64,000 bases of DNA from Ascochyta rabiei. Taxonomy: Eukaryota > Ascomycota > Dothideomycetes > Pleosporales > Didymellaceae. Location of the stretch: positions 1 to 64,000 of the forward strand of contig NC_082417.1 of the NCBI RefSeq assembly GCF_004011695.2. The letters run 5' to 3'. Below the pieces are notes generated by a model. The model was not told the origin of the DNA, ran no database searches, and saw only the letters and a program-made list of their open reading frames with translations. Positions 3,411 through 46,090 of this stretch are shown in pieces (position 1 is the first letter of the stretch; each line of letters opens with the position of its first letter). The position numbers and the translations under genes were made by a program.

Positions 3411-3433
3411 TAAGGTTTCGGGTTACGGTTATA

Positions 3434-6400
3434 TCAAACACATTCTTTCTAGTCTGCTAAATACGACTGCACATGCCCCTCCTCCCAAGCATATAGGAAA
3501 CGACACATCTGGCTCGCGTCTCTCTGGCCCATCTTGATCTTTAATCCGAGCCACTTGTAAAGCCGGAGCTCATCGCTACCGTGCACAATCGCGGCGTCTT
3601 ACATCTGCTGCTCCAGCCATGGCGTGCACATCAGTGGCTGGCAGGCAAGCAGCGCAGCTACTGCTCTCTGGAGCACTCCATCGTACTGGCAAGGCACATG
3701 CATCCCTTGTGTCTTAAACGCACCCTGTATGCTTGTTTCCTCCCACTTGTTGCAGATGGCTTAGGGCGCCCAGCAGTAAAAACACCGCGCATACTTCTCC
3801 TACTTTACTTAGTGCATAGATTTCACCTTAGACTCCATTAATGTCATCTGCGCTCCGCTGGCCTTTGAACAGTCCTTCCAGTCGTGGCGCGCCGGGTCAG
3901 CCTGAGTGGCCATGCAGATGGCGCACGCATTGCTCCAGCGCTGGAAGTGCTGCTCTAGCCGCTCCAGGTCATATACTTTTTGTTCCGTCCTTCGCCGTTG
4001 CTGGATCTTAACCCTCTGCTCTTTAACGACCATAGCTCGCTCTATACATCTGCGCTGCTCCTCTGCTGCCACTGCCGCAGTGTCGGCCTGCGTCTCCTCT
4101 GGCTCTTCCTGCTCTTCTTCGACGGCTTGTTGCTTGGTACCACCGGGGTGTCGCTCGCATAGATCACACTTCGACTCTCCCATCTCGCATTGCTGCCTGT
4201 TCTGTCTGCCGTCCATGTGCTTGTCTATCGCGATTCGCTGACAGGATTCGACTGTCATAAACTCCTTTGCAGGTCGCTCCAGCTTGTAGCCGAGCGCCTT
4301 CTCTACCCTCCCTCTTTTGTTACATAGCACGCTCTCATAACAATAGACTTGCTGTCGAGCCCCGTTCGTCCCGCCCGGCCGCTCTCTTGCACATATTGGA
4401 GCAGCAGGGGACACATGGCAACGTGGATCACCACCCAGACGCCTGCAGCGTCGAGCCCAAGACCTAGCATGTTCGTGGCTGTACAAAGCTTCTCTATGCC
4501 TAGGGTGAAGCTTCGCACCATGCGTGCCTTTTCCTCGTCTGAGCCCATCTGACGGTAGTATGCAGAGCACTGCAGAAGCTTCGCAAGCCGTTTCGTCTCG
4601 TCCACAGTTGGACAATAGACGATGATCTGCGCCTTAGGTCCGTACCTACTCCTCTTCGCAGCCACAAGCTTAATAAGTACTTTTTCTAGCGTGCCACGTG
4701 TGTACTCTAGCACCTGGTACGCAATGTTCGTTTGCGTGGTGCGTTCATCGCGGCATATGGTTACGGTCTGGGCATCGAGCCCTGCGGTGTGCAAGAAGGC
4801 GGGCTGCAGCGTGGGCGGCAAGGTTGCAGTCAGGTAGACAACCTGTGTGCCCTTCTCCGTCATCTCCACCATCTTGAGGAGGTCTGGCCGCCAGTCCTGT
4901 GTCGACTCCAGCAGCACGTGGCACTCGTCTATCACGATACGATCTAGCTGATGGAGCATGCGCTTTTCGTCAATGAACCTGCCGAACGCCTTCGTGACTG
5001 CGCTCTTAGGCGTCACCAGCACAATACGAGCCCAGTACGGCGGTCTTCTTCCATCCCACTTCGCGCAGGGGATGCCGAGCTGGTCGCAGCGATCTTGCAG
5101 ATCGTCTCGCAAGGCATTCAACGGAGCCACGACCACGGAGACGCCGCCTGGCGAGACGGACGCGGGCAGCATGAACAGCATACTCTTGCCGGTGCCAGTA
5201 GCCATAACAACTAGCACGCGCAGCCGTCGCTGCATCACAGCCTCAAGGCTTTCTTCTTGCTTGCCACGATACTCGGCGTCCGGCCGTCCAGCGAGTCGCC
5301 TGAACTCTGCCTTGAGGTCCACCATCGCGAGCGACGACCAGCGCTGGAGCGCCTGCTTCTCTTGCTGCGCTACCATCTCCGCGCGAACACCGGGGTGCAT
5401 GCGGCCGTCCTCCCAGGCGGATGCAAACTCCAGCACGCGATGCCAGTCCATGCTCACCCGCCGGAACTCCTCCCGCTCAGCCATGGTCTGAAAGGGAGAC
5501 TCCATCATGGAGCGGCCGTAGTTGCCCTCCTCTGTTTTAAGGCTGTGGCCGGACTGCAACGCTTGCGCGTTGCTCTTCGCCGGCGCTTTGTTCCAGTAGA
5601 GCACTTCCAACCAGTCGCGTGCTTGTCCATCTCTTGCCAGCTCTCGGTGGATGGCTGGGTAGGCATGCCGCCAGGCGCGGGTGCCGAGAGCGGTGTTCAT
5701 GTACTGAAAGGTCTGCTTGCGCAGGACACGGCGTATGCGATCGGTGCCCCAGTACCCGTCTGGGTTAGCGGATCGTGCCTTCTTACGGTCGGCTTCGCCG
5801 TACTCGTCTCCGTCGTCGCTCTCTTCGCTATCGCTCTCGTCGCCCCACTGCTCCTCCGGCTCTGGCTCCCAGATGAAAGCGGTAGGGCGGGCAACGCCAT
5901 TGTGCAGCATCTGGAGATCATCTATGAACGGTCGACCGAGCCTGAGGAAGTACACCACCAGCTCACCCACCTCCCAGGGAACATAGCGGTGGATCGTCTT
6001 GACACGCTTGCTGAAGCTATACCCCTTGTGGTACGTAGTGGTGAAGGATACCAGGCCACCCTCTACAAACACCCCCGATACCCTACCCCGTCTGCACTGT
6101 TCTCGCACTGTATCGAGGTAATCTCTGTCCCGCGACCAGGCCCGCCGCCAGACATGTGAACAAGCGTGAAGAGGCCTTCTTTAAACTGACGCACTCCTTT
6201 CATGTACCTAGCTACAGCGTCATCGCGCCATAGCGTCCGTTCCGGCCGTTGTGTGCTATCTATCCCACGAATGAATCTCTCCCTTAGCGGAGCCTCGTCC
6301 AACACCCGGTCTAGAAGCCAGTCTTGCCATCTATCTAGCTGGTTGTCGGGGTGCTTCAGAAAGCTCCAGCCCGTAGCCAGCTCGGCTGGCTGATCGACGA

Positions 6401-25063: not shown

Positions 25064-25794
25064 AAGGGCTTTAGAATTAGATAAATAGTTAAATTAAAAC
25101 ATATCTTTAGTAAACATATATAGATAAAAAGATAGGTTGAGGTATTTATTAGAGATAGAAATTAGGATTAGTAGACGCTTATAGCGTGTATATGTACTAA
25201 TAGGAAAGTACTACTACTAGGCCTTATTTACACGTTAAGGAAAAATAACATTAAATTAGACAAGGTAGCTAAATTTTAGCTTAGGGTACACTCCGTACAG
25301 GTTACCTTATTTTCCTTAGAATAGTTAAATAGTAAGATTAGACTTAGATGGCTTAAACAGGTGTTTAATTGCTATGCTAAGGAGAAAGCTTAGAAGAAGT
25401 AGAGGTTAACAACTCTAGATAGCTATAGATCCTACGTAATAATAGACTTTATTAACTACTATAATAATAATAAGATACTATTAGCTGTATTACCTCCTTA
25501 TTTAATTTAGACACTCTAGCCGCTTAATGCAGTACAATTTAAACCTCTATTAACAGTATTATTAAAAGAAGTTATAAGAGAGATCTGTAAGTCTAAAAAC
25601 CACACAATTATTAAGAGATTAGACTTCTTTTAAATCTTCTATTAGGCGTAGATATCTAGCTTTACTACAAAACTAATACTTAAAACCATTATGGTAATAG
25701 GTATCTATCTACTTAATTCTAATATTAGTCTTAGTCACTTTACTAAAACACTAGAGAGCTTAGATTTAGAGAGTACGTTATTGTTAGTTTATAG

Positions 25795-25957
25795 TGTTAG
25801 GCTCTCAGCCTTAGAATCTCAGCCTTAGGCATGTGGTGCGTCCACCTCTAACCTGTAATACCAATAAGTACTGTTCTAGCCACAGTCTCACTATTAAAGT
25901 GAGCATTGTTACCTTTTTGGCATGCTTGGCACGATGGGCAGAGCTGTAGCCTTGATA
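25795..25957. repeat. Left LTR of the miniature element
   Basis: 163 bp, same length as the right copy. It ends with an A-box-like TGGCACGATGG (25,927-25,937). A B-box-like GGTTCAAATC lies downstream at about 25,991-26,000, suggesting an internal RNA polymerase III promoter (inference). Confidence 0.82.
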
Positions 25958-26249
25958 TTATGCTTACCTTAATAGCTATAGCGTAGCGTGGGTTCAAATC
26001 ATGCTGGCAGACCTAGCCTACCTGACAGATGGTTGACCCCGCACGGGTCTAGTCTCAGCGGAGCCGGCTCATCTGTGGGTGAGCTGAGGCACAGCCCCAC
26101 GTAGGCTAGTGCTGTTGCTGCTGGAAGGTCTAGTACTTAGGATAAGAGAGAGATCTCTCTGAGCGGCCATAGGCGCGCGTCAGATCCTTGCACCCACAGA
26201 TGCCTGCCTGTTAGGCCTGGGTCAGGCCCTCGTTAAGAAAGGGAGATAT

Positions 26250-26412
26250 TGTTAGGCTCTCAGCCTCAGACTCTCAGCCTCAGGCATGTGGTGCGTCCAC
26301 CTCTGACTTGTAATACCAATAAGTACTGTTCTGGCCACAGTCTCACTATCAAAGTGAGCATTGTTACCTTTTTAGCATGCTTGGCACGGTGGGCAGAGCC
26401 GTGGCCTTGACA
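26250..26412. repeat. Right LTR of the miniature element
   Basis: 163 bp. It is less mutated than the left copy: it keeps CCTCAGACTCTCAGCCTCAG where the left copy has T for C at several positions. It is followed directly by the TATAG target duplication. Confidence 0.82.
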
Positions 26413-27125
26413 TATAGCAACAAAGACTAGCTTAAAATAAAGACATTGTTACAGACAGTTGCTAAAGACAAGTAGAGTTAGGAGGCTAAAAAGATAAGAC
26501 AATCAATCTGCTATATCTTAGTTAAGGCCTTACTCCTCTAATATAAGGTAGAGAGCCTTAAAAGACCATAAAAAAGTAGGAGAAGTAAAAAAAGAAGAAA
26601 AGGGTATAAGACTTATAACAACAGCAGTAGTACTATAGTAGTGCTGTCTTTTAGTCTCTTTTAAAGATTAATAAAGCACGCTTCCATAAGAGAGTAAGAA
26701 AGCAGGAGGAGAAGGAAGAGGCACTTAGAAAAGCAACTAATAAGAAAGTAGCTACTGCTAAGAAGCTAGTTAAGGAGAAAGAGAAGGACAAGAAGTATAT
26801 AGTAAGAGAGGTAGCTAAAGAGCAGTATAAGAAGGAAAAGGCTAATAAAATAATTTAGAAGGCTAAATAGGATACTATAAAGCAGTATTAATAATAAGAG
26901 TGTAACGATGTTAAAGCTAAAGAATAACCTTAATTTAGTAAAAATAAAGCTTTATAAACAACCTAGTAAAAAAAGTATTAAAAATATTCATAAAGGGACA
27001 ATGTTAGTAGGCGTAGTCCCCTATTACTGCCTCTGGCTACCTTAGCTATTCGCCTATTACCACCTACTGCAGCTGTAACATTACACTTCTAAGTAAATAT
27101 AGATAGGCTAGATTAATTGTAAGTA

Positions 27126-28988
27126 ACGTACTCTACGGGTGAGCGGATTAAACAGGTGAGCGGATCACTCTGCTAAGACCACACTAAACCTCCACCTTAC
27201 CACGCAATGCCTCAACAACAACATTAATCTACGCCCTTAAGAGAAGCTGCGATACAGCTTGCGCTCTAGGCAATTAAACAAGACGTAACACTTACCCTAT
27301 AACGCGCTGTAGCTATATATAACACGCCTTACAGTACACTACACGCTTAATACACAGAACAACCTGCACAAGCTAATTGTACGCTAGTTTAACAGATTAT
27401 AGACCAGACTAAGGAGGACGTAATTACTAAGTATATCCTTAAGCTAGATACACAAGGATTTACCTCTTAGCTGGCTGCTATAGCTAATATAGCTAATTCT
27501 TTGCGTGCTAAGCGTAATATAGGCCATGTTAGCATAAACTAGCCTAACACGTTTATTAAGCGCCGCCCTAACCTTAAAGTAAGGTTTAATTGTAAGTACA
27601 ACTACAAGAGAGCCCTCTGTAAGGATCTAGAGATTATTAGGGGCTGGTTTAGGCTTGTAGCGAATGTTAAAGCTAAGTATAGCATCTAGGACAATAACAC
27701 ATACAACTTTAATAAGACAGGCTTTATAATAGGCTAGATATTAACAGGAGCAGTCATTACAGGCTTAGAGCGTTAAGAACAGCTAAAGGCAGTGTAGTAG
27801 GGTAATTAAGAGTAGACAACGGTTATACAGGGCATTAATAGTATAAGGTAGGCTATTCTACCCTTTATTATCTTTAAAGGCTGTAACTACCTCTCTGCCT
27901 AGTATAAAGAGGACAATCTGCCCTATAACTAGGTTATTAGAGTCTCTAAGAACGGATGGACTACTAATAAGCTTAGTCTAGACTGGTTAAAGCACTTTAA
28001 TGCCTATACAAAGACGCGCACCTAAGGAGTACACTAGCTGCTCCTTATTAACAGCTACAAGAGCTATAACTCTCTTAACTTCTAACAATACTGTAAGGAA
28101 GTAAAGATTGTTACACTGTGTATACCTCTATACTTATCTTACCTCTTATAACTACTAGATGTAGGTTGTTTTACCCCTCTAAAAAAGGTATATAGGCGCT
28201 AAGCCAAGAATCTTATACATAACTACATTACTTATATTACTAAAACTAAGTTCCTACTATGCTTTATAGACGCCTATAAGAAGATATTTACTTCTAGCAA
28301 TATCTAAGGAGGCTTCTAAGGCGCTAGAATAGTCCCCCTTAACCCAGAACGGGTTATAATAGGTCTTGATGTCCGCCTACGTACCCTACTGCTACCTACT
28401 ATAGAAGATAAGCCCTAGCAGTCCTAAACCCTAAGCACTACCCTGCAATTAGGGTCGCAATTAACGCTAGTTTAAGAGAGGATTTAAAGGCATGCAAGCA
28501 GCTCACTAACTTTAATAGTTAAGGCCTTTAAAAAGCTTGCTAAAGGCGCAGCTATAGTAGCGCACAAGCTAGTGTTAGCTTAAAGGGAGATTACTAGGCT
28601 TTAAGCAGCAAATAAGGCTGCTACGCGACGTAAATTATATAAAAGAAAGCAATTACAGCAGGAGGAAGTCCTAACAGCTAAGGAAGGCCTTTAATTAACT
28701 ACTCTAACTAAGTTTAGGGTGTGTGGTAATAGTAAGAAGGCAAAGAAGCGAGTGCGCGCTAAAGGAGGGGAAGTAACCTAAAGACGCTGTATAAAGTGCT
28801 ACAACGTTAGACATAACTTACGTACATATAAGAAGGCTGTAGAAGATGTTTCTAAATAATATTATATACTGCACTACTGTATACAAGGCCAAAGTGGGCT
28901 AATGCGAGCTATAATAGGGTAGAAATTTGGTGTGGTCTTGGCAGAGTGATCCGCTCACCCGTTTGATCCGCTCACCCGTGGAGTACGT
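27126..28988 (+). mobile_element. Fot1/pogo-type DNA transposon B, nested in A'
   Basis: The TIRs begin ACGTACTC and carry the doublet GGTGAGCGGAT ... GGTGAGCGGAT. They run at least 55 bp and differ only by transitions, with T or A in the left copy. TA flanks both ends (27,124-27,125 and 28,989-28,990). The + strand transposase relic shows a CENP-B-like N-terminal region, YNFNKTGFIIG (near 27,710) and the DDE segment LLLINSYKSYNS (near 28,040), where the usual Asp-Gly-His has become Asn-Ser-Tyr. Stops replace Trp and Gln throughout. It is closely related to the element at 37,588-39,450. Confidence 0.87.
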
Positions 28989-29129
28989 TATTACTTTACT
29001 ACTCTACTATGAGATCTTATAATAATAGCTATTATAAGTGGCTCTATAGCCTTAGTTTTCTATACGTAGAAAAGTGGTTAGGTGCGCATCACGCGAATCC
29101 GCGCACCACGCGCACGGACACGGTATTAA

Positions 29130-29613
29130 CTAAGTTTGTCTTCAAAATGTTGTAAAGAGACTGACGTTCGCCAGTAGTATTTTGTATCGTCCGCCCATCG
29201 CTGGGCTATGTCTGCACCTGTCGCCAGGATAGATTCTTTACTTTCACTGAGGATAGCAGTAAACGAAGGGGTAGTGAAAGATTGAGTTGGTGGAGGCGTC
29301 ACGGCGTTTGAGCGCTTGGCAAGAATGGCTGCTATTTTACCGCGCTTGCGCATAGACTGTGTTTCGGGCTAGGTGCGCCAGGATCCACCGAGCGTTGGCG
29401 ATGTGGAGCGCTATTTTGCATCGGGCTGAGGGTTTGACGTCGCAAAAGATTTGCCTCTATTAGGCCTAGCATGCTCCCGCTCGTCGGCGGGGCAAGCTCG
29501 CTTTTCCCTGACGCTTCCCCAAGCTTGAGATGGCCCGCTTTGCGAGACAATGCTGTGCTTCTGCAACAAACTTGTTAACAGAAACTACGATAGCATCAAC
29601 GAGGCTGAGGTAT
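29130..29613. other. Region between transposon A' and the TPR gene
   Basis: Normal base composition returns right after the TIR. A 75-codon minus-strand frame with ATG at 29,353 stops exactly at the transposon edge. It could be a gene fragment cut by the insertion or chance. An ATG at 29,530 (+) opens 78 codons but is in another frame from the downstream gene. Neither is convincing. Confidence 0.4.
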
Positions 29614-29654
29614 AGCGAAATTCAATTCCACCAGCACGTGCGGTTAGAGCTTAC

Positions 29655-32235
29655 GTGCTTCAGACTGCCCTGTTACGACGGACTTTGCACGAGGCCCGTC
29701 AGCTTTTCCAGCCCCTCTCTTGCAACTCTTCCAACATCGAACACGACAGAACGCAAGATACATTGAAAAGAAAGAAGAACGACGCTCGGTCTGGTACCGA
29801 ACAAACTAGAAGATACCAACCTGGAGCCCCGCCGTCTTCTACCCCAGATCTGTTGACCCCATTGCCAGCATTTCCGGATGCAGAACTGCCAACCTTTAAT
29901 CGGCTCATAAAGACGTATATTGTCAACGACCCAGCACCTACTCTTTCTTTACACCCCACGCCTGGTGCGCAAAAACATCTTGGTGCTGTTGTGCAACTGT
30001 TCGTTGCCATAGAGCAGGTCGGGCAGGACATCACCTTCCATTCTGCACTCCGACGCATCTACTGCTTGGCGTTCGCAAAGCTACACAAGCCCTACACATC
30101 TGTGGAGTGCATCGCAAAGGAAATCAGGGATGCTTTGCCAGACGTTAAATACGTCAAAGATAAGGTTACTCAGGTGCTCCACGTTGGGAAAAGGTGGCTG
30201 GACATTATCCAGCGCTTCGCCGCGATCGTCAACGCTGACGCCAAGCAACTTACTGGGCTCCTCGGCTTGCTTTCATCTACCTCCGTGTAAGTCCACGTAC
30301 GCCGCCAGTTGACTATTTAACTCATCGGCTACTAGCTGGGAGAGAGCTAAGCTTGACACATGCACGTCCGTACTCGCACAACTTCATGCGACTACCGCAA
30401 TTCACACCCGGGCCATAGAGCTCACTCCTGGTGTCAACAGTTTTCTTGACCGCATAAACTGTACAGGACCGAGCCTAGTGCTGTTCAAATGCTGACTATT
30501 TTCAGTGGAGCGTTCTTTCGTTGATGAGACGCAGAGGTTTACCTCAAATCCAATGTCGATGGGTAACCGAAGGGCGTTGAATCGCGTACCCCAACATAGG
30601 TTTCAACATACATTGCATGGGTTGCAACCTTCCTCGTACACTCAAGCGATAGAAAACATTTCCTTCTCCGTTCCAGGATTGAGCGATGTTGGCAACACAG
30701 ATGTTCATGCCATGGTGGCACTGCTGTCGTTCTTTCCAACGGGCAAGAAAGTGCCCCTAGCTCTTTTCTTACGCGGAGCGACACCTCGCACACGCTGGAC
30801 GGTAGATGGCGACACTCAAGAGCTGGACGCATTTGGGAGCGGTCTTTGGGCGAAACTGCAAAGTTTGCTTTCGGACAGCCAAAGAGTCCACGATGCAATC
30901 CTTACGTTGGAATCATTGTCCCTCATTTCGAAATTTGATCAGACCTGTTCACTGAGTGGGCAAGCTGCGCAAATTGTCATGGAGGCTTTGCCCATAGAGT
31001 CTGCTAAAATCTGGCAAAGCCAGGCCTTGGTTGTTGCTTACAGAGCAATACCATGGAAAAATCTTGAACTCCCGTGAGTCCAGCCGACTGCATCGCCAGT
31101 CAGACTTTAATGCGATTATAGTGTTCCTGACACCAAGGCATTCCTTCCGCCGCTAAGACATCTGGTGGAGGCATTCGAGGATGATTTCGAGTCCTTGTCG
31201 ACTGACACTAGGGTCGACCTCGCGCTAACTCTTCTCGAGGCCTCTCGCTTTTCCAACCTCGAGTGGAAACGCTTTGCGGTTAGGCAATCGGAGCGCGTAG
31301 CGCGTAGCCTAAATCATGGATATCTTGACCTTTGTATTGCACAGTCACAGTGCCTTGTGGCTCGACTCGCTGGGGAAATAGATCAAAATTTTGAAGCTGT
31401 CCAAAGCCAAAACTTCGATAGGAGAATGCATTCAGCAGCCGGTCTGGAAAACATTCAAATTTCTTTGAATTATATGCAAATCGAGGCCATGTCAAAAGCT
31501 CAGGCAGTCTTGGAGCGCTGGACCCCCATCGATCCACCGTCCAGAATGGAGGATGTGGTACTCGTCCGTAAACACATGCTTCTCGGGAGGGTACTGCGAT
31601 TTACCGGCAAATTTGACGAGGCGCTGGCGAATCTCAACAAAGCACGGAGATTGACAGATGACCTTGGGGTAGGCCTTTTCAACGAAGACCTTCGGGATCT
31701 CATCTGCGACTTGAGCGATACGCTGCGAGAACTCGACCATCCAGTCACCGCCGAAATTCACCTTCGAAATGAGCTCAAGCGGCGAGAGCAGGGATGTAGC
31801 CCAGCCACCGGTCAATCTTCCATACAATTGTCTCTAGCAGAAGCTCTCTTTGCGCAAACGCGTCTCAAAGAGGCGGCTGCCCTCTGTTATGATGTTCAAT
31901 CTCGCGTTGGGCTTAAATTCGAGAGACTGCGCCTACACATCATCCTGGCCAAGATTCATCACGTCGAGTCCAAATTCGAAGAAGCTTTGCGCTATTGGAG
32001 CGACGCTATGCGAACGATTGGAGAATTCCCTAGGACTAACGGTTTTATGACCCGTGTTATCATTTTGTCTACTGTTGACGTACTGAGTCACTTGGAGAAG
32101 ACAGATGCGATCAGCCACTCACTCAAGATGCTGGAGGACCTAGATAGTCTAGCAGATCCCCAATGTGTCCAACACTGGATAGCAGGGACGCAACATTGGT
32201 TAAGATTTCTCCCTGCCCCTCGATGCTGTTTGTAG
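29655..32235 (+). CDS. TPR-repeat protein, NLR/STAND-like C-terminal half
   Basis: Four exons join into one frame of about 812 codons: up to 30,286; 30,336-30,460; 30,506-31,073; 31,122-32,235. The introns are 49, 45 and 48 bp with GT..AG ends. The true ATG is not in the first exon, whose frame opens after a TAG near 29,612, so an upstream exon is likely. The N-terminal 220 residues are helical. Exon 3 has a winged-helix-like segment (ALLSFFPTGKKVPLALFL ... LESLSLI) as in fungal NB-ARC/TPR proteins. Exon 4 encodes TPR-like helical repeats (LGRVLRFTGKFDEALANL; EALFAQTRLKEAAAL; KIHHVESKFEEALRYW). No P-loop is visible. It may be a relative or derivative of a fungal NLR immune/incompatibility protein; this is inference. 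Confidence 0.65.
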
Positions 32236-32756
32236 CTTCTAAAGAACTTAGAATTTAAGGAGTTCTGGCCTCCATGTTCCGTTCGATACATTGTCAATCT
32301 CCACCTCATTCAACAAACGAGGTCGTGTTCTAGCGAGAGTAAATAAAATTCGACCTTAGGCTAATTGACCCCTTAGCCCTTTTGGACATGAAAGATGTGC
32401 TTGGGTTAAGTGAGTGTTATTGTAGTAATAGGGAAGGATTGGCACTATTGTAATATCTACTGTCGCGTCAGAGGCAGCGGCTGTAAGGGCACAATGGACG
32501 ATGGAATACTGCGCTGAGTTGCTGTCTAGCTTCGAGGGTTCTCTAGGTACAGACCATGAAACGCGTACTGACTCAAACCGGTGAAGAGATAGTCAGATAG
32601 GGCCGACTCAGATCGCAACAGAATATCGTCAGATGGCTCTTCAATAGTACACTCGCCAAGCACGACAGCAGCTGCCCATCTCGCAATCGTCTTGCCACTC
32701 ACATCGGTCCAAAGTCTAGGAGGGAGTAGAGTGCAGACGACCTTCTTGGAACGCAT

Positions 32757-35731
32757 TCAAGCACGATCAGTCTTAGTGGTTGTTAGTAGACTTTTGTGTT
32801 ACCAGCAAACCACGTTATAACTTTTAGCACGTTTATGTTCTATTAAACAGATACCCGTTGCAGCTTCTTCCCGCCTATACATGTTAACAACGTCAGGACC
32901 TTCCTAGATGCTGGCCAGCTTAAGAACTATCCGCTACTCTAGGCCCTGGCTAAGGCTGCCACGCTCTTCCTACACGCTGGCTAGCCTAGCTTTGTTGTCT
33001 TCTAGGCATAGGCAAGCAAGTACCTAGCAGCTACTATATCTTAACAAATGTTTATCATAGCTTACAGAGGAACAGCGCTTTATCTAGCATTTGCAATCTG
33101 CTCCTTAAGCTATGGTTAGACTCTTAAAACTACCCTACTCTTACCCTAAAGACTGTTGTTATAGCACGCTGTGTAGTTGCATTGCTCTTCTACTTTAAGC
33201 TCTATAACAACGCTCTCCCACTGTGGTAACGTGGTAGGTATGCGCTCTGCAGGTACATTTAAAGATTAATATAACGCGGTAAAGAGATGTGCGGACGTCC
33301 TAGGCGCGGGACCACAAGTATATTCAGTTAGGTAGGCAAGGTAGCGTTCTAGGTAGGACTTGTTGCCTGCTTGGTGCTACTTTGCGTTCATCGAGTGGAA
33401 GTCAATGCCAGGGTCTAAAGATTAATACGTCTACTGTACGCGTTAGCATATACTATGCTCCTAGAGTCTCTCTTAAGGCACTAGGAACTAAGATAGAAGA
33501 ACACCTAGCCTAAGGGCGAATCCTCCTAGTAGGAAGTATAGTATCCTTTACCTAGAAGGCCTACTATAGAGCTCTTAGTAGAATCCTAAAGGTAGGTTTC
33601 TTTAATGATTACAGCTTTCTGTTATCTGTATAATCTATTCTTCTAGAGTAGAAAGTTCTTTACAGCTAAAGCTTTGTTCCTAAGTTCTTAAGGCGTAGCC
33701 TTGCTAAACTACTAGGTGTTAGCAGTCTTAACTATTTACTTCAGCGGTACGTCCTCTACAGATAGCTTTAATTTCCTATTCTTTAGCAAGCGTACTATCT
33801 TCGTTTACTACTACTAAGGGACCTAGTTAGAGGATGTTCATTGTCTGTCCTAATTTCCTCCTCTAAAGTTAAAATTTAATTGTTCTTTTAGTATACATTA
33901 CTGTATACTACAAAGTTAGTATAGTGGTAAGATAGTCTAGGAAAGGCTTAAAAGATTTCCTTAATATAGGCTTTAAGTAACGCTTAATTACCTACGCGTT
34001 AAGCAGTGTCCTAGTCTTTCTAGTAATCCTTTATAGCAATTTAAAGCTTAACCTAATTATCTAAAGTGTATAGTTTTAAGCGCTTAGTAAACCTCCTGCA
34101 GTAATTCTAGTAGTAAATAGGGAGGACCCTAACCTTCTGCTTGTTACTTAACCCTCTATTTTTAGCTATGTAATTATAGTTATTAAGGAACTCTATAACT
34201 TCCTTTCTATTTAAGGACAGTCAAATAGACCTTCCCTTTATTAGAACAATAACCTAATAGCTACTTCCTGTTAGGGAAGATAGTGTCTCTATAGAGTCTA
34301 AAGGGTTGTCTATAGTAGTGTACATTAATCCTTAGTAGTCTGTTATATTAAGTAGATTATAGTTTCTTATAATTAAAGTAATGTTAATTATCCTGTTTAT
34401 AGGAGCAGCTTAGTACCTGTCTTTTTATGCTGTTCTGCCTAGAAGAATAAGGCTAAGCAGAATAGTGCGGATAGTAAATACCAAAAGCATTAGAAATTAG
34501 GCTAAGATACCTCCTTAGCTCAGGTTTGTTTAGGTTAACTAGATGCCTACCTTATTCTAAGCCTAAATTTTTAGTTTTCTAATAATAGGCCTAATAATAA
34601 CGTCCTAGTCTAGAGTTAACAGGATGATTTGTAGGGCGTGCCCCAGCCTTTAGAGTGGCAGAATTTTAGATAATAAAGTCCTAGTCTAGAATTAACAGGG
34701 TAATACCTAGGGCGTGCCCTAGCCTTTAGAGTAGCAGAATTGTAATGTTGCCTACTATACTGTGCCCTCTAGTTAGGTTACAATTTTGTCCAAGTATAAG
34801 TATTAAAGCATCTTATTAGTAGGCACATTAGGAAAGATACTTGTTAGCATTATTGTTAGAAGGAAGAGAGATAAGTAGTACGGTAACTAAGTTCTACAAG
34901 TAAGTGTTCTGCTAAGTGTTGTCGTAGTCGCCTCCCATTGCCTTAAGACTTCCTGTTAAGGCTTTTATACCTTTTTTTTTGCTAGGCAGATTACGTATAC
35001 TTACTAAGCATCCTGGTTATTACTAAGGTAATCACCGTGTGCACCGGCACATTACTAGAATAGATTTAGAAGGCATTTACAATTAGATATAGCATCTTAT
35101 TTTCTTTTGTTACTATAGAACACAACTATTAGTATCTTAGCCTCTTAAGTTTAGAGGCGCTTAAAAGACATAGCAATCTAGATTTGCCCTTGTTTAAGTA
35201 GAATATAAGCCTCCTGCATCTAAAAGCACACTACTATTATACTAGAGGCATCTAAAATAATATCTTAAACTTTTACCTAACTTATAAATAGAATATAAAA
35301 TAGATTATAAATAGATTAAAACATATATAGTTGTAGGATTCTTATAGTTTGTTAAATATTTGTAAAAAACAGCGTCTAGTCTATTTTAATATAGGAAGTT
35401 TAGTATCTACTTTTTTTTAAGCAGGTAATATAACATTTATTAGCAAGGGCAGCATAAATGTCCTTAACGAATATGTACCCCTATAGTTTAAGGAACGCCT
35501 TAACCTAAGGAAAGTCAAGAAATTAGGCTAGAAGGCATTAGTAATAGACTTAAAAATCTGTTTTAAATGTATTCTTACACACTATTACACCTAGCGTTAG
35601 TATTAGTTATTATACGCTAAGTATCTAAGCTGTATCACTCTTTAAAGGCCTTAATAGTAGAGGTAGTATATATTAGTAGGTTTTAGTTATTATAACTGCG
35701 TAGAGAGGTGTTTTAGGTATGTTGTTAGGTA
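32757..35731. other. RIP-like AT-rich desert, unclassified repeat remains
   Basis: Stops occur in every frame and TA dinucleotides dominate. I recognise no transposase or polymerase motif. The only clear structure is a 76-bp tandem duplication at 34,596-34,747. Confidence 0.6.
34596..34747. repeat. 76-bp tandem duplication
   Basis: Two adjacent copies (34,596-34,671 and 34,672-34,747) share AATAANGTCCTAGTCTAGA, a TTAACAGG run, GGGCGTGCCC and AGCCTTTAGAGT. Differences are mostly transitions. Confidence 0.8.
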
Positions 35732-37585
35732 ACGTAAGTGTATAGCGAGTGACGCGGATAAGCGAGTAACGCGCCCTAACAAGCTGTTAGGCCTACTAAC
35801 TGCAACAGTACAACACTACAACGTTGTACTGTAGCTTACAGTACAAAATATTAATTGCTAACCTCTACTACATCTTTCTTACAAGTGCGTAAATTGTAAC
35901 TAATCTCTCTGCAGCGCTTACAGTGCCTTTTACTGCTCTTGCCTACACCTGTTTAAACTCTACCCTTACAACTCTCCCCTTTAACCTGCGCCTTAACGTC
36001 GCATTAAGCTATTAAGTCCTCTGCCTCTTCCTTTAACAGGTCTCTGCCCTTTTAAATACACTTTCCTTTCTGTAATTTACGCTTAGAGGCTGCTTTATTT
36101 AACGCTTTAAGCTGCAGTACTTAGGCTGCTAATAACGTCTGCCTATGCAGCCGCATTGCTGTACCTCTCTGCAGCTAATTAACAATCTTAACTATTAGAG
36201 TTAGTAACAATCCTTAGTGCTTTTAAATACAGTTGCAAAGCAGCGTTAATTAAGCCTAGATCTTATTAGCGTTAGTGGGTGTCTTAGGGTTCTATTAGAG
36301 CTCCTCTAAGAGCGGTAGTGTTAGCGTGCAGACCTTAACATTAAGCTTTAATAGCACTACTAATAGATCTCTAGGCACTAATCTAGTTACCTTAAAGCTT
36401 GCTGTAATGTTTGCCTTTAAAAACGCCTGCTTAAATACCTTTGCAAAGGTCGCAATAGAGACTTTCTTATTAATTCTGCTAATATAGTCTAATGCTAAGC
36501 CTCTAATCTCTCTACTGTGCGCTTGCTTTAGGGGGGTGAAATAACCTACGTTAAGCGGCTAAAGGATGTGTAACAAGTGCAGAGGCATACAGAGGGTAAT
36601 TATCTTATTCTACTTATAAAGCTCCTAGAAAGAGAGCAACTTGTAGCTCTTGTGGCTGTTAAGTATTAGCAGCACGTAGCTACCTACCCTTTAGCCTTTA
36701 ATCTGCTTAATAAAGTGCCTAAGCTAGGCTACACTAAGCTTGTTAGTAGTCTAGCTGTTGTTACTTACCCTAATGCGCCATTAGGGCTTTAAATCAGGGA
36801 ACTAAGCTTTGTTGTAGTTCTTTGCTTTAAAGATAACGTTAAGGTAGGGCGCAATTGCCTAGCCTATTGCGTTAATTGCAGTAATTAGAGTTACCTACTT
36901 ACAATCTCCCTGCTGGACTCTAATAGGCTTACTACGTCTCTTTAATGCAGTAACTACTTTAACTTAACTTCTAACGCCTATAGTAAAGCTAGTCTTATTA
37001 AAGTTATAGGTATCTTTGTTAAGGATACTATACTTAGCCTTAATGTTCTGTACTAGGTTAAACTAGGGCTTTATAACAGCTAGGTCGCTGCAGAGAACTC
37101 TCTAGCAATCCCTCTGTTAAGTTATTCGCAATTTAACTCTAGGCTTGCGTTTAACAAAGTTTAAGGCCTATTATAAGCTAATAGGGCCTACGTTACGTAC
37201 AGCGCGCAGTTAATTAGCTATATCTTTAACCTAACAAAACATTAGGCTAGATCCTTGTTAGTTAAGCATTCTTATGTACTTTACAATGGTCTGCTCTTCT
37301 GCCTTAGTAAGATTTAATAATTTAGGGTAGGTATTGCGTGTTGATTGCGTTCTAGCGCGTTAGCAGCAGAGAGTTGCCTCTAAGACCTTGTAAACTACAG
37401 CAGCGCGTCGCACGCTTAGTTCTTAAGGTTTTTTTAATTACTTAGAGTGCAAGATTAATTCTCTCTTTATTTGGAAGTATTTTAAGGTCTAGTGGTTGAT
37501 CTATTGAGATTTGAAAATAGGTAGACCCATCGGCTTGTTAGGGCGCGTTACTCGCTTATCCGCGTTACTCGCTATGCACTTACGT
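35732..37585 (-). mobile_element. Fot1/pogo-type DNA transposon C
   Basis: The TIRs begin ACGTAAGTG and carry the doublet AGCGAGTRACGCG ... AGCGAGTAACGCG. They extend for about 50 bp on both sides. TA flanks it at 35,730-35,731 and 37,586-37,587. The minus-strand interior resembles the transposases of B and B' but is full of stops. The right-hand TA is shared with element B', which begins at 37,588. Confidence 0.83.
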
Positions 37586-37587
37586 TA

Positions 37588-39450
37588 ACGTATTCAACAG
37601 GTAAGTCAGCCACATAGGCGAGTCGGCCACTCTGCCAAGACCACACCAACATTCTACCCTATTATGGCTTGCATTAGCCTACATTGGCATTGTTTATAGT
37701 AGTACAGTATATAATATTATTTAGTAACACCTTCTTTAGGCTTTTTACACGTGCGCAAGTTATGCCCTATATTGTGGCACTTTTTACAGCGTCTTTAGGT
37801 TACCTTACCTCCTTTAACACGTACTTACTTCCTTACCTTCTTACTATTACCACACGCCCTAAACTTAGTTAGAGTAGTTAATTAAAGGCCTTCCTTAGCT
37901 GTTAGGACTCCCTCCTGCTGCAACTGCTTTCTTTTATGCAATTTACGTCGCGTAGCAGCCTTATTTACTACTTAAAGCCTAGTAATCTCCCTTTAAGCTA
38001 ACACTAGCTTGTGCGCTACTATAGCTGCGCCTTTAGCAAGCTTTTTAAAGGCCTTAACTATTAAAGTTAGTAAGCTGCTTGCATGCCTTTAAATCCTCTC
38101 TTAAACCAGCGTTAATTGCGACCCTAATTGCAGGGTAGTGCTTAGGGTTTAGGACTGCTAGGGCTTATCTTCTATAGTAGGTAGCAGTAGGGTACGTAGG
38201 CGGACATTAAGACCTATTATAACCCGTTCTGGGTTAAAGGGGACTATTCTAGCGCCTTAGAAGCCTCCTTAGATATTGCTAGAAGTAAATGTCTCCTTAT
38301 AGGCGTCTATAAAGCATAGTAGAAACTTAGTTTTAGTAATATAAGTAATGTAGTTGTGTATAAGATTCTTAGCTTAGCGCCTATATACCTTCTTTAGAGG
38401 GGCAAAACAACCTATATCTAGTAGTTATAAGAGGTAAGATAAGTATAGAGGCATACACAGTGTAATAATCTTTACTTCCTTATAGTATTGTTAGAAGTTA
38501 AGGGAGTTGTAGCTCTTATAGCTATTAATAAGAAGCAGCTAGTACACTCCTTAGGTGCGCGTCTTTATATAGGCATTAAAGTGCTTTAACCAGTTTAGAC
38601 CAAGCTTGTTAGTAGTCTATCTATTCTTAGAGACTCTAATAACCTAGTTGTAGGGCAGGTTGTCCTCTTTGTACTAGGCAGAGAGGTGGTTGCAGCCTTT
38701 AAAGATAATAAAGGGTAGAATAGCCTACCCTGTGCTATTAATGCCCTGTATAACTGTTGTCTACTCTTAATTACTCTACTACACTACCTTTAGCTGTCCT
38801 TAACGCTCTAAACCTGTAACAACTACTTCTGCAGATATCTAGCCTATTATAAAGCCTGTCTTATTAAAGTTATATATATTATTATCCTAGATGCTATACT
38901 TAGCTTTAACATTTACTATAAGCCTAAACCAGCCTTGTATAATCTCTAGATCCTTACAGAGGGCTCTCTTATAGTTGTACTTGCAATTAAAATTTACTTT
39001 AAGGTTAGGGCAGCGCTTAACAAATATATTAGGCTAGTTTATGCTAACATAGCCTATATTACGCTTAGTACGCAAAGAATTAGCTATATTAGCTACAGTA
39101 GCTAGCTAAGGGGCAAATGCTTATACATCTAGCTTAAGAATATACTTAGTAATTACATCCTCCTTAGTCTAATCTATATTCTGTTAACTTGGCGTATAAT
39201 TAGCTTATGTAGGTTGTTCTGTATATTAATTACGTAGTATACTGTAAGGCGCGTTGTATATAGCTGCAGCGCGTTATATAGTAAGGTTCGCATCTTGTTT
39301 AAGTGCCTAGAGCGCAAGCTGTATTACAGCCTCTTTTAAGGGCGTAGGTTTATATTGTTGTTAAGTTATCGCGTTATAAGGTAGAATGTTGGTGTAGTCT
39401 TAGTAGAGTGGCCGACTTGCCTGTGTGGCCGACTTACCTGTTGAATACGT
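37588..39450 (-). mobile_element. Fot1/pogo-type DNA transposon B', abutting C
   Basis: The TIRs begin ACGTATTCAACAGG and carry the doublet AGTCAGCCAC ... AGTCGGCCAC. They extend about 65 bp to CAACATTCTACC. TA flanks it at 37,586-37,587 (shared with C) and 39,451-39,452. The minus-strand interior is homologous to element B (compare 38,100-38,270 with the reverse complement of 28,320-28,490). The transposase is dead through stops. Confidence 0.86.
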
Positions 39451-39452
39451 TA

Positions 39453-41253
39453 TAATATTATTAAATATAACAGAACATAGCTAATACACTATCTTACTAA
39501 AGCCCTAGAGATTGTCTACCCCTAGAATAGATTAAAAATTTGTTTAAAAATTCACTATATTACTTTGCCTATAATATAGTAGGCTTAATAATATAACATC
39601 TCGTCTCTATATTACTCTTAATAACTATTATACTGTTAAAGAGACCTCTTAGGTACTTAATATTAATGTTTAACCTAATGCTATTGCTAAAGTGCTTCTC
39701 TGTTTCTCAGCAGACCTACTTCTATTAATTACATCTAATAAAGTAGGGAGCCTCCACTATAATTACATTCTAAATAGGATTAGAATGTACTCTTTTTAAA
39801 GCATAATTAAGAACTTACTAATTAAGATTTTTAATAGATAATATGTTTATAAGTAGGGTAAGATACAGGACAACCTTGTTTTCTAAGCTATTAAAGCGTT
39901 CCCTAGTAAAGACTTCCTATTATTAGCTTGGAACAGATCTAAAATACTTTTAGAATAGATTAATAAACCTTATTACCTGCTGTTAAAGTTTAGAGCTATA
40001 CTTTAGTAGAAGGCTCTTTATCTATTAAATTTTACTGTATAGATAAACATCTACCTATAAATAAGAAATCTTTAGTTTAGGTATAAAATTTTAACATATT
40101 CTAATTTTAGTACAAAGGTACTTAAACTATGTTGCATCCTAAGCTCTAAAGAAAGGTAACTTTGTTAGCCTCTAAACAGATCTTTAAGTCTAGCAATATA
40201 GCATCTATAGTAGATTAAGAATAGATTACAGATAGATTTAACCTTTAAATATACCTTAAGTACCCTATACTACACCTTTCTTACAAAGAGCTATATAGTA
40301 TCTTAGTTCCTTACTATAGGTATAATATACGCAATACTAGTCTCTAATATACCTAGGTATAGTAGTAGTATAGTTATATACTTAACAGTTCTAGCTATTA
40401 ACAGCTATCTATAGTTGTTACTAATTATAAATAGAGTAGTAGTCTGTATATACTCTGTAAACTATTTGAAATCTATTTAAACTAAATTTAAAGTCTTCCC
40501 TGCTCTATATATGCTTACGTGCCCTCTACTCTGTCCTCTAGCTCTGCAAATACGTCTCTAAGCTCTAGCTCTTACTTAATTACACTACTAGGGTTGTCTG
40601 TAGCAGGATAGGGCACAAAGCAAGTAAACGCCTCTACGTTGTTAGCTATAGACAGACCTTACTAAGGAGAATAGATTAGAAATTAGCTTATAGTTAATGC
40701 ATTTAAAATTAGTTTAAGTGTCTAATTCTTAGTAACACAGGTGCGGTATTTATAAAGATCCTGACTAGTGCCTGCTAAGCCTAGCTACAGTTTAGGGAAA
40801 CTTAAAACCTTATCTTCCAGGTTTTTATGACCTAATTAGGATACCTGAGGTTTGCCGATACTAATTCCATGGCTGGCTCAACTACCAACACCAGCGGCTG
40901 ATATGTCCCCGGCTTAAATTCCCAATGTGTTTTCTGAGACCCAAAAGCGATTCAGATTTAGTTGTTAGTTGTTTAAACTCGTCAAAGCACCTATTGGTTT
41001 AATGTTTAGAGTCAACTTTAACGCAAATGAGGTTACCGGAGGGCAAGGATGTGCCAGTGCATTAAGCCTTTAGATCTCATCTGACAAACGCGTGGTAACC
41101 TGTTACAGTTAATACAAACCACATGTAGCCGTCTTTTAATCAGCAGAGTCTAAATAGTGTATCCATTAATTCAACGTGGGGTTTCATTATCGTGATTCCT
41201 TGACCCTTGCTCATCAAAGTGTTTAATATCTTCCAAATGCACTAATCTGACAA
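39453..41253. other. AT-rich desert, then normal spacer
   Basis: From 39,453 to about 40,850 the sequence is RIP-like with no recognised motif. From there to the carboxylesterase relic composition is more balanced but no gene is seen. Confidence 0.55.
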
Positions 41254-43063
41254 CTAATCGTAGTACCGGTCAGTCGTCACTCTATTTGCCATATTCAGTC
41301 TTAAATACAGAGTTGAAATACGCAATACCAGCTGCTCTCCAGCTGTCTCTCTCGACAGTACTTGCTTGCTTGACTTCAAAACAAAGTTTTGTCCATAGCC
41401 GCCAATGCCATCGTTGTACTTCAGCCACGCTTCACTGCCAGGTACACTATGCCCATTTGGATCGTGTATAGTGAAGAACAATACCTACATGTTACTTATT
41501 ATCTTTGCTGTATTGCGGTATCCGGCGGGGACTGCTGCCGCGCCACCAAAGGCTATACGCTTAAGGTTGTAAAAGACGTATAGAAATCAACGAAGTGCGT
41601 TAAGCCAGGAAGGTTACCCACCAAACCATTAAAGCGGTAGCAGTAGGCTGTAACATTATGCTTTGACCAAGATTGGCAGGCTAATCGCCTGGGTGCAATA
41701 AAGGTGAAGTCTCCCAAAAGTGTGGCCCAACGCTTTGTTTGCGTTCCACGGCCTGCTAGTAGCATGGTCCAAATTTCTGGAATGCCGGCGCCAGGGATGT
41801 TAGGATACAACGCCTCCAGGAAAAGTACAGTATTTGCAGAACCGTAAGCCCTAGCGCAGTCCCGAAACTCTGCGTTTGTGTTGATGTTCACCCCAAGAGC
41901 GGTAAAAATGCCTTCATCGCTGTTTGTACCAATAATGATAGGAACTTTAACAAAAGCTCCAGCCTCTAGCTGATCATACAGACTGCTCTAAATCAGATCA
42001 CCGTCTACATATGGAAAGAACGATCCTGCGGCCGCCCCTCCTAGCGCAGCGTTGATCGTAGCATATAGCAGGTCGCGAAGGCATTGTAGGGTACTGTTTA
42101 AGCTTAAGCATTTAGTTGTCAAAACAATTTTGTCAAACCTGGCCTGCTCGGCTGTGGCGTTGTATTTGCTTCCAAGCAACAGAGGGGCTCCCGACTCCAT
42201 GATAGCGGCCAAGAAAAGTTTGTCATCACAACCACCAAAGGCGGTCAAATAAATGCCGACAGATGCGGCGCTAGCAGACTCTCTAAAGATTGTAATCTAC
42301 ATTAAGAGTTAACATGTGGATCGTATCGTGCAGCGTAGCAAAGACTGAAGCTGTAACTCACTTTTGTATCATTACCACCAAAGGCAGCTATGTTCTCCTT
42401 CACCCATTTCAACGCAAGACGCTGGTCACGGATACCAAGGTTTGTAGCCCCAGCCTCTTTTACTTCCTTGCTATCCATAAACCTAAATGCATTAAGACGG
42501 TACTGAAGACTTACATCAATGAATAGCTTATTAATTTCAACACTGTTCTAGACAATGTAACTTATGTTGTAAAGAGTGTAAACGGTGCCACCTTACAAAA
42601 AAGCTTTGTTCATGTATTAGCCCATGCAGAATCAGAAGTTAAAAGATGTAAATTTACCTCCACCGTGGATCCAAACTGCCACCGGCAATTTCCGCTCATC
42701 ATATCCAGTTGGCTTGACGACGTTCAAGTACAAACAGTCCTCACTGACCTCAAAATCCCCAACTTGCTCACTGCCATATCCTGCACATTTGGGTGGATAG
42801 GACTGAGCTTGCAAGGGGCTGTTCTAGATATATTTAACAGGCTGTAGAGGAGAGAAGCGTAGGGGACCAATTGGCGGCTCAGCAAAAGGGATACCCAGGA
42901 AAGCATCTTGCTTGTACGAGGTGATATGGTAACTAGTAATCGTGCCATTTCTGAGAGTAACTTCGGGTCCAGTTGTTGCAGCTGCCTCTTAAGCAAGCGG
43001 ATGTGGTGAGGCTGCTATAATAGATGCGCTTGCTCTAAGCATAAAGGGCATAAATGTCCTCAT
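41254..43063 (-). pseudogene. Type-B carboxylesterase/lipase, inactivated by RIP-like mutations
   Basis: The minus strand starts with an ATG (43,061-43,063) and a hydrophobic leader. Family hallmarks follow: FLGIPFAEPPIGPLRF, SEDCLYLNVVKP, VAVWIHGGG, DQRLALKWVKENIAAFGGN, AAIMESGAPL, FIAPRRL and FFTIHDPN. Introns interrupt it near 42,645 and at 42,361-42,297. The enzyme would hydrolyse ester substrates outside the cell. It is dead: TAA at 42,989-42,991, TAG at 42,824-42,826, a further TAG in the exon near 42,560 and a TAG replacing Trp near 41,490. A frameshift lies near 41,590. The nucleophile motif GESAG reads RESAS (42,270-42,284), and an AFGF segment reads AFRF. The substitutions are all explained by C:G-to-T:A changes. 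Confidence 0.87.
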
Positions 43064-43959
43064 CTTAAGATCTCAAGAGGAGCGGTGCACTGGTTTGTCT
43101 CTTTGGCAGTACTTGTTAGTAATAGTCTGGGCCGGACGATCTCTATATATCAATTGATCTACCAAGGTCCTACTACTAGCAAATAAAGGCACTGTAATTT
43201 TAGCCTACCTTAGATGATTGCAACTCTTTGCATGCCGAAGGCGGACGTCGAGCTAGCTATCACTAAGTTAGGTAGCTTTGTAGACATGAATTCTTTCTGT
43301 GTATAATGAATGCTGTGTATACTTTCGCCACAAAACCTCACCCTGTGTGAATCTTACGGATATGTCGCATTCCTCGTGATTCAGAGCTTTATAACACGCT
43401 AACTAAGCAGTCTCTAGCAGTTTCACCCCAGCGCCATGTGTGCGTTCGTGAATGCCACCCTAAGCTTCATAATCTAATTAATTTGGATCAATTTAGTGTA
43501 CCGCCTGGTTTTAAGATCGTGAGCTCAGCATGTGCCCTTTGGCCGGTTAGGAGCAGAATAAATCTACCTGTGCTCACGCCATAAAATACCTCACACGGTC
43601 AATCAACATAAGCCTAGTTTAGTAGCCAAGCCGTATACCGAGTAGCAAGGTCAAAGGATCGCATAGGTGCGATATCCGAAGCGTTTCGAGGTCGTGCGAA
43701 ACTAGAAGTTGGGAAAAGCACTGTAAATAGCAGATCTGTGCGCTGCCGGTAGGGTTATAGTGCAAGGGCTGGAGTCGTTCAGGATTCCTGTCAAAAACGC
43801 GAAATTGCATAAATCTGGTAGACAGCGGTAACTGCAAAGGTCATTCCCGTCTTGTAACGCTTTTCTCGACTACAAAAGCTTTTCGGATATGCGCAACCTC
43901 TTTGGCAAAGCTTGTGGGCTCAGACGCGGTTGAGCCTGATCAATACTTCCAAGCGATCG
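43064..43959. other. Spacer between the esterase relic and transposon A
   Basis: Normal composition, no gene supported. The minus-strand frame at 43,619-43,837 has no recognisable homology or context. Confidence 0.5.
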
Positions 43960-43961
43960 TA

Positions 43962-46090
43962 CCGTGTCCGTGCGCGCAACGCCCGGAGTCGCGCAACGCC
44001 CGACTTATCTAAACTACGCCATACTTTAACGCGTTATATCTTAACAACTATAGCACCTATTAACAAAGCGCTTGCAGCAATTAATGCGCTAGAACTAGGC
44101 AAAAAACTTGTATATTAGCATTTTGCTAACAAGTTTGGCGTTAATTGCTTAACTCTGTCCTGCTGACACTAACGCGTACAGGCGTCACAGGAGACTAAGG
44201 ACATTAATTAACAACAGCTTAACTCAGAATAAGAGAGAGAGCTAATAAAGCATATAGATGTGCTTACTAAGCGTTGTTTACTACCTATATAAGATATAAT
44301 ACAGAATTTCGCTTTATCTATAGCCTAAAATCTAGTCTCTAATAGCTGGGTTACTCGCTTTCTCCACAACTATAACAACAAGCTTACCTTACAATAGACT
44401 AACGCTATAGATACTACCTGTTACTTAGCTAACTTTTACACTAAATATAAGCTCTACTTTAACCTTCTACAGTAGAAGATTACTAAATACTCTTTTAAGA
44501 GCTGCTACACATATAATATAGATAAAAAGGGCTTTATAATAGAAGTAGTAGGTAGATTAAAACAGGTGTTTAGTAAGCGCAGATAGGATAAGGGGGAGGT
44601 TAAAGCAACGCTTTAAGATAGTAATAGAGAGTGGATTTCAGTGCTGGCATGTACCTGTGCTGATGGAAGTGCGTTACTGCTAGGCCTCATCTATCTAGGC
44701 AAGGGAAAGGCAGTACAATTAAGCTGGGTTAAGAGTATAGAGCCAGGAAAGAACTTAGTCTACTTTACTACAACCCCTACTAGCTAGACTAATAACAACG
44801 TTAGCCTTGCCTAGCTTAAGTAAGTGTTTAATTACTACACTAAGAAGAAAGCACAGAGATCCTATTAGCTTTTAATAGTAGATAGCTACAGATTACACTT
44901 AACGCTTAATTTTATTAGGTACTATAATAATAATTAGATTCTAATATATATCCTTCCCCATTACTTAACTTAAACAACTTAGCTACTAGATGTAGTTAAC
45001 TTTAAGCCTCTATCTACAGCATATAAGAAGGAGCTTGCTTAGTTTACTAGAGATAGCTATAGGAAGGTCTCTGTAAAGAAGGGCAACTTCTTTAATCTAT
45101 TCTAGGCTGCCTAGGTGTCTACCTTTATAGAAAAGCTAATACTTAAAGGCTTTAAAGCTACTAGTATCTTACCCCTTAACCCTAACAAAGTCCTTACTAG
45201 GTTTGCTAACAACGTAGCTAAGGCCTTAGATATGTTATTATCTAACTTATGCTACAGTAGAGAAGACTAGCTTAAAGTACAGTTACTTATTAGGTTAGCA
45301 GTAAAGGATAAGCGTAGTAAGAAGGCAAAGAAGCTAAGGCGCTTACTCTACTATATCTTAATCTAAAACAGTATACTCTACAATAACGTATAGGGTCTTA
45401 AAAAAGCACTAGATATTAAGAAGAGGCAGAGTAAAAAGCCTAAAAAGCTAGACCTCTAACAACAGCAGGAGTACTACAGTAGTGCTGTGTTTTAGTCCCC
45501 TAGTAAGCGGCGTAAAGCTAAGAAACGCTATAACGTGTTTAAGCGCCTAGAGATAGAGGAGGAGCTTAAGAAAATTAATAGGAAGGAGCTTGCACACGCT
45601 AAGAAGCTAGTTAAGGAGAAGGAGAAGGAGGAGAGGCGTGTAGCGTAAGAGGCAGCTAAGGTAGTGCGTAAGAAGGAGAAGGCTAACGCAGCAAATTAGA
45701 GAGCTAAACGTTAGGCTAAAAAGCAGCGTTAACAATAAGAGCGCAATGCTGTAAAAGCTATAAAATTGCCTTAAAAGGGTAAAAGGAAAGCTTTATAAGC
45801 AACCTAGCCAAAAAAGCGTTAAAAATGTAGTCCTAGGGATAATGTTAGTAGTTGTGGTCCCCTATCACTGTCCCTAGCTCCTCCACTTAAAACCACATTA
45901 CGTGGCCGCAACGTTAAGTTACTAGCAAAATTCAAATAGTACATCTTTTTTGCAAGTAATTAATTACTACTACACTACAAGATCCTGTAATAATAGCTAT
46001 TGTGGGTGGTTGTACAACCTCATCTATTTTTGAGCGTTAAGGTGGTTTCCGGGCGTTGCGCGACTCCGGGCGTTGCGCGCACGGACACGG
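43962..46090 (+). mobile_element. Fot1/pogo-type DNA transposon A, complete with identical TIRs
   Basis: TIRs of 41 bp (43,962-44,002 and 46,050-46,090) are identical in inverted orientation. They start CCGTGTCCGTGCGCG and contain the doublet GCGCAACGCCCG ... GCGCAACGCCCG. TA is duplicated at 43,960-43,961 and 46,091-46,092. The element is 2,129 bp. The + strand transposase relic is recognisable (LLIVDSYRLHLTLNF near 44,875; ILPLNPNK near 45,170; Lys/Glu-rich coiled coil at 45,480-45,720). It is interrupted by many stops, mostly TAG or TAA at Trp/Gln positions. The contrast between perfect TIRs and a ruined gene is notable. Confidence 0.93.

Follow-up and report, generated by a model that had tools for sequence, protein, structure and literature searches.

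The helix-turn-helix (HTH) of the Drosophila pogo transposase is said, going by a 1999 title of Wang, Hartswood and Finnegan, to recognise a 12-bp sequence in the terminal inverted repeats (TIRs), and two copies of the site reportedly lie at each end. In fungi, the Trem elements of Paracoccidioides carry two 17-bp direct repeats in the TIR; their TIRs are 42-49 bp long, most with TA target sites, and they have HTH, CENPB and DDE domains, and the accessible part of that paper compares Aft1 and Tan1 of Aspergillus and suggests that these repeats are recognised by the HTH and CENPB domains (Marini et al. 2010, PMC2836289). In Verticillium, direct repeats of 15 to 17 bp lie in the TIR of DAHLIAE1, and the 17-bp repeat of DAHLIAE2 stands three times at one end but twice at the other. 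The available text of this 2012 paper calls direct repeats within TIRs transposase binding sites (PMC3441728); a Sclerotinia paper, in its accessible text, found no such repeats (PMC4188875). Here we analyse the Fot/pogo-type transposons of a 64,000-nucleotide stretch of Ascochyta rabiei (contig NC_082417.1, positions 1-64,000; the window), which opens on the telomere repeats of contig C13, and place them among the related elements of the genome. Their TIRs carry a tandem doublet at a fixed place, with a spacing of 17 or, in some families, 16 bp, roughly one and a half helical turns, and the repeated box has in most families a part common to different families and a part that differs between families and is kept alike within each.

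The window elements are Fot/pogo-type DNA transposons, with TIRs of about 40-60 bp containing internal direct repeats of 15-17 bp and with a TA target site on both sides, which was read directly at the window ends and is present by construction in the elements listed from the genome. Their reading frames are degraded and the surrounding DNA is AT-rich. The elements are as follows:

43962-46090, plus strand: element A, a 2129-bp element of Fot/pogo type with TA on either flank, CCGTGTCCGTG tips and a transposase remnant.
27126-28988, plus strand: element B, 1863 bp, TA target duplication at 27124-27125 and 28989-28990, tips ACGT, transposase remnant.
35732-37585, minus strand: element C, 1854 bp, with ACGT tips; its transposase remnant lies on the minus strand.
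37588-39450, minus strand: element B', again 1863 bp with ACGT tips, in inverted orientation to B and adjoining C.
25064-29123, plus strand: remnant of element A', related to element L049 of the genome, left 564 bp absent, split by B (27124-28990) and by a second insertion.

B and B' are 89% identical across the full 1863 bp and are therefore sister elements, their variable cores (CGGAT and TCGGC) being unequal despite this sisterhood. A' matches L049 from position 565 to the right end and consequently has no left TIR here, so that the right end at 29123, in minus orientation, is the sole A' end in the window. The second insertion in A' is of ~640 bp (25771-26412), and a direct repeat of 168 bp, 92% alike, lies around this region at 25791-25958 and 26246-26413. 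C and B' share a single TA at 37586-37587; because they abut with one common TA, one of the two landed right at the edge of the other.

Nine ends could be measured in the window, both ends of A, B, B' and C and the right end of A', and their doublets are:

43973-44003, plus strand: A left end, box 1 at 43973-43986 and box 2 at 43990-44003, lag 17.
46049-46079, minus strand: A right end, box 1 at 46066-46079 and box 2 at 46049-46062, lag 17.
27137-27167, plus strand: B left end, boxes GGGTGAGCGGATTA and AGGTGAGCGGATCA, lag 17.
28947-28977, minus strand: B right end, GGGTGAGCGGATCA twice, lag 17.
35743-35773, plus strand: C left end, boxes TAGCGAGTGACGCG and AAGCGAGTAACGCG, lag 17.
37544-37574, minus strand: C right end, two boxes, lag 17.
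37599-37629, plus strand: B' left end, boxes AGGTAAGTCAGCCA and AGGCGAGTCGGCCA, lag 17.
39409-39439, minus strand: B' right end, two boxes, lag 17.
29082-29112, minus strand: A' right end, boxes CGCGTGGTGCGCGG and CGCGTGATGCGCAC, lag 17.

Self-matching was scored with a 14-base word at lags 4-35 over the first 52 bases of each end and compared with 400 base shuffles per end. The best lag was 17 in 9/9 window ends, with 11-14 of 14 bases matching, and the observed score was reached at any lag by 0-5 of the 400 shuffles per end. With a 12-base word, applied to eight ends (A' omitted), lag 17 was the unique best in seven and tied with lag 8 at the left end of B'. The sequence-only reading of this DNA had described doublets with a 17-bp period in five TIRs, and they are present where it placed them, the first copy at TIR positions 12-25 and the second at 29-42. 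Each of the five elements has its lag-17 doublet, but A' contributes one end only, and the five cases are not independent, since B and B' are sisters and the tips of A and A' are common to both.

To place these ends in a wider set, elements were drawn from a DDE_1 domain search of the 40.90-Mb genome, in which 150 of 666 candidates were scored; 40 regions came from the best-scoring part of these 150 and six more (L049-L054) were chosen for low score/open frame, so the regions are not a random sample and all counts are to be read accordingly. TIR pairs were called only where TA stood on both sides. From 56 pairs first listed, four were left out, two as internal sequence (L027 1845-3684, L045 858-3028) and two as the ends of two different elements (L022 6025-8733, L047 808-3448), and seven were added (L023, L049-L054), giving 59 elements; a TIR pair search in L028 found none. 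Over the 118 ends, the best lag with the 12-base word was uniquely 17 in 79, uniquely 16 in 36 and neither in three, namely the tied left end of B' and the L047 left and L050 right ends, each with one copy. Lag 16 or 17 was the unique best in 96/2360 shuffled ends. Two Tc1-type controls with HTH_Tnp_Tc3_2 and another TIR (L055, L056) had their best lag at 11 or 13, with 7 of 12 bases; as far as these two can show, the doublet goes with pogo-type elements. A start of the second copy exactly 17 bp after the first is not universal: the period is 17 in most families examined and 16 in three, those with cores CCGCT, YCGGT and TCGGA. The base lost in the 16-bp families lies in the short spacer between boxes, and with core TCGGA the spacing is 16 in the 1.88-kb element (L022) and 17 in miniature elements. 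That spacing and position are conserved across families holds well beyond the window, with the spacing widened to 16 or 17.

Several ends depart in box number or layout. Both single-box ends (L047:6421, L050:3149) have a doublet at the opposite end of the element, and that of L047 lacks exactly one 17-bp unit; three tandem boxes occur at the right end of L022:6025-7904 (lag 16) and at C10:1792914-1792958 (overlapping matches at lag 17). At the left end L040:1691, four additional bases separate the ACGTA tip from what follows, which is not so at its right end.

A genome-wide pattern search gave the same two spacings. The pattern CGAGNNNNNCA, which was derived from families already seen and tests the spacing, not the existence of the motif, occurred twice with a gap of 0-30 at 975 places, versus 241 for the reversed pattern; at start spacings of 15, 16, 17 and 18 there were 56, 145, 191 and 40 pairs, and 12, 14, 3 and 11 with the reversed pattern. 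Cores were identical in 91 of the first 100 pairs at spacing 17, 61 of the first 100 at 16 (83 with at most one mismatch) and 4/40 at 18. Minisatellites, not transposons, seem to account for four of those 91 (core CACGT, contig C1) and for two of those 61 (core TGTTG, C7), and 8/56 pairs at spacing 15 sit in one tandem array on C14. A further tandem array with a 17-bp period (C1:695788-695866), whose unit also fits CGAGnnnnnCA, is probably unrelated to transposons.

For the anatomy of the box, 15 family strings were aligned from the TA and cut at positions 12-25 and 29-42 (28-41 in the 16-bp families), and the copies within a family differ by 0-2 of 14 bases. A majority recount used 122 actual ends in 16 families, the single-box right end of L050 being dropped and the left end of family F13 being taken with the right flank's ACGTA tip and its four extra bases set aside. 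Here Y(G/A)AG stands at box positions 4-7 in both boxes of 11/16 families (exact YGAG in both boxes in 8/16; the closing CA too in 9/16). The motifs had been called unrelated in sequence, which does not hold for these 11 families: B, B' and C are among them, with Y(G/A)AG in a common frame. The exceptions are families A, A' and L012 and, by majority count, F12 (decayed copy) and F14. Among 13 families with ACGT tips, likeness between families is 0.74 at positions 4-7 and 0.81 at positions 13-14, and 0.41 in the core at positions 8-12.

The core differs between families and is alike within them. Over 16 families, core likeness is 0.40 between families and 0.95 between the two copies of one family; earlier figures for the 13 ACGT-tip families (0.41 between, 0.97 within) came from hand-typed strings, with the less decayed variant chosen by eye. 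When second boxes of the typed strings were re-paired among families, the observed likeness was reached in 0/20000 trials. Over all family pairs and 14 positions of these strings, a difference affects both copies at 813 positions and a single copy at 136; the shared history of the families makes these events non-independent. The copies are not locked together, those of F10, F13 and F14 differing by one or two bases. This joint change fits the earlier proposal of a transposase that would read two sites which change together.

Miniature elements, marked by convergent doublets 405-407 bp apart, repeat the pattern with three cores, CGGAT at 14 listed places (and one more with a changed core), TCGGA at nine and CTGCC at one. 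Three of them (L057, L058 and L039:1370-3634) have the common outer tip ACGTACTCCAC, with a C-to-T change at one end, and these three families have different cores, each at both ends. The TCGGA and CTGCC elements share part of their body (blastn E 2.7e-20), whereas the CGGAT element is less like the others (E 3.5e-6, mostly at the ends). CTGCC and CGGAT also occur in full-length elements at spacing 17 (spans 1834-1835), and TCGGA at 16. In L039, the TCGGA miniature copy has decayed boxes at its left end; this copy (1370-3634) contains a nested B'-type element.

The protein that could read such boxes is preserved in L012. Its DDE_1 domain lies at residues 193-362 (E 7.5e-32), with D162, D273 and D309 invariant in 47 aligned sequences and 35 residues between the last two, and its N-terminal part has HTH_psq at 7-44 and HTH_Tnp_Tc5 at 58-113; Tc5 was also found in L049, in a scan for that domain. 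By tblastn, the intact protein matches window elements B, C and A, the alignment to A beginning at residue 101, and has no match in B' at E 1e-3, although B' is 89% identical to B. Near-identical 1778-bp elements occur at L011-L014, L016, L021 and L043 (96.6-100% to the L012 protein), with long open frames kept in L012-L014; they form a recently spread family, in contrast to others that are heavily mutated. The DNA-binding region was aligned across copies of eleven families (F3 only from residue 22). Between families, residues 34, 35, 38 and 39 in the psq head (0.14-0.22) vary greatly, and so do residues 106-108 in the Tc5 head (0.11-0.20), so neither head is assigned to a part of the box; the rows compared are noisy, being majority residues over mutated copies and in some cases single copies. 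Neither the whole transposase nor alignment A1 found a credible full-length relative in a sequence search of solved structures, the best A1 row being an HTH domain, LCoR, at E 0.71. The predicted fold of the whole protein matched a catalytic domain best, and the DNA-binding part was therefore folded alone; its top structural match was CENP-B. A viral collection held no transposase relative and no match to the anchored doublet pattern. Two doublet matches in a prokaryote collection, in each of which the cores of the pair differ, were read as chance.

The doublet in its fixed place, the 16- or 17-bp spacing, a box with shared and variable parts, the joint change of the boxes and the domains of the intact copy, all directly observed, are best explained as a whole by Fot/pogo ends with two tandem transposase boxes, one domain to each box, to which we assign a probability of roughly 0.8. 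Each TIR would consist of an 11-bp outer tip carrying the cleavage end and, directly behind it, two tandem transposase-binding boxes of 16-17 bp. One box would be the footprint of one two-headed domain (HTH_psq and HTH_Tnp_Tc5) folded like that of CENP-B, and the period would then be the length of one box, because each box is taken as one domain's footprint; two transposases would sit head to tail on each end. We infer binding, the assignment of one domain to each box and transposase recognition as the force that keeps the copies alike. The two-headed domain of CENP-B, with its two HTHs, reads one 17-bp box, one domain per box. CENP-B and the A. rabiei transposase both have two HTH heads in one domain, and differ in that CENP-B is a domesticated centromere protein for which no tandem doublet is claimed; the two are likened by fold, not by box sequence.

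It is unlikely that a single transposase molecule spans the doublet, each head reading one copy and 17 bp being the distance between heads. The intact transposase does have two heads, the families examined have two copies and the spacing is nearly fixed at 16-17, but the top structural match, CENP-B, uses its two-headed domain on one 17-bp box, and ends with one or three copies exist. Slippage or gene conversion acting on short tandem repeats, in place of a need of DNA binding, is a slightly poorer candidate for what keeps the copies alike. Box number does shift by whole units, to one at the left end of L047 and three at the right end of L022, much as DAHLIAE2 has three and two copies in the accessible text (PMC3441728); yet slippage at one end cannot alone make the far end match, and both ends have the same boxes, while place and spacing stay unchanged under different outer tips, at 16 or 17, even in F10, F13 and F14, whose copies differ. 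A chance or composition effect of GC-rich ends, for which the AT-rich surroundings and degraded frames of the window elements might speak, is already refuted by the counts, as neither shuffles, reversed-pattern controls nor Tc1-type ends give the pattern.

Within the reading of tandem boxes with one domain each, the box in most families would join a common part (Y(G/A)AG, often with a closing CA) to a five-base part marking family identity, and families, along with the miniature elements that borrow their transposase, would diverge through the variable part, changed in all boxes. We rate at about even odds the broader idea of a modular address, in which the five bases name the family in each 16-17 bp box, new families and their miniature partners arise when these bases change in every box (two per end, both ends) with tip, place and spacing kept, and the boxes can be read as a code linking miniature to master element. 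If this code is true, sequence alone would tell which transposase moves which miniature element, and a route would open to study the joint specificity change of a transposase and four or more binding sites. Where fungal transposons are annotated, the doublet offers a strong and cheap way to recognise Fot/pogo ends, even those of elements with a destroyed gene.

Set beside the described systems, the doublet is a real and well-supported feature that is already described in kind, the evidence on other fungi coming from papers. The sequence-only reading had taken the rule to be undescribed, which the 17-bp TIR repeats of Trem, Aft1 and Tan1 (PMC2836289) and the 15-17 bp repeats of DAHLIAE1/2 (PMC3441728) contradict, as far as the accessible parts of both papers go, and a bare 17-bp rule leaves current knowledge unchanged. 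On joint box change between families and on shared and variable parts, no statement was found in open-access text (figures and supplements lying outside the search), which is weak evidence of absence. Like the A. rabiei elements, Trem elements are fungal Tc1/mariner elements with two 17-bp TIR repeats, but their accessible text describes neither 16-bp families nor a shared/variable split (PMC2836289). DAHLIAE1 and DAHLIAE2 are alike in ACGT tips, in HTH_psq, HTH_Tnp_Tc5 and DDE_1 domains and in internal repeats, with no shared or variable part described in the available text, and DAHLIAE3 differs in its CCCG tips and lack of recognisable repeats (PMC3441728). What A. rabiei appears to add to these systems, and what is worth keeping, is a box, variable in part, whose copies within one element all change together.
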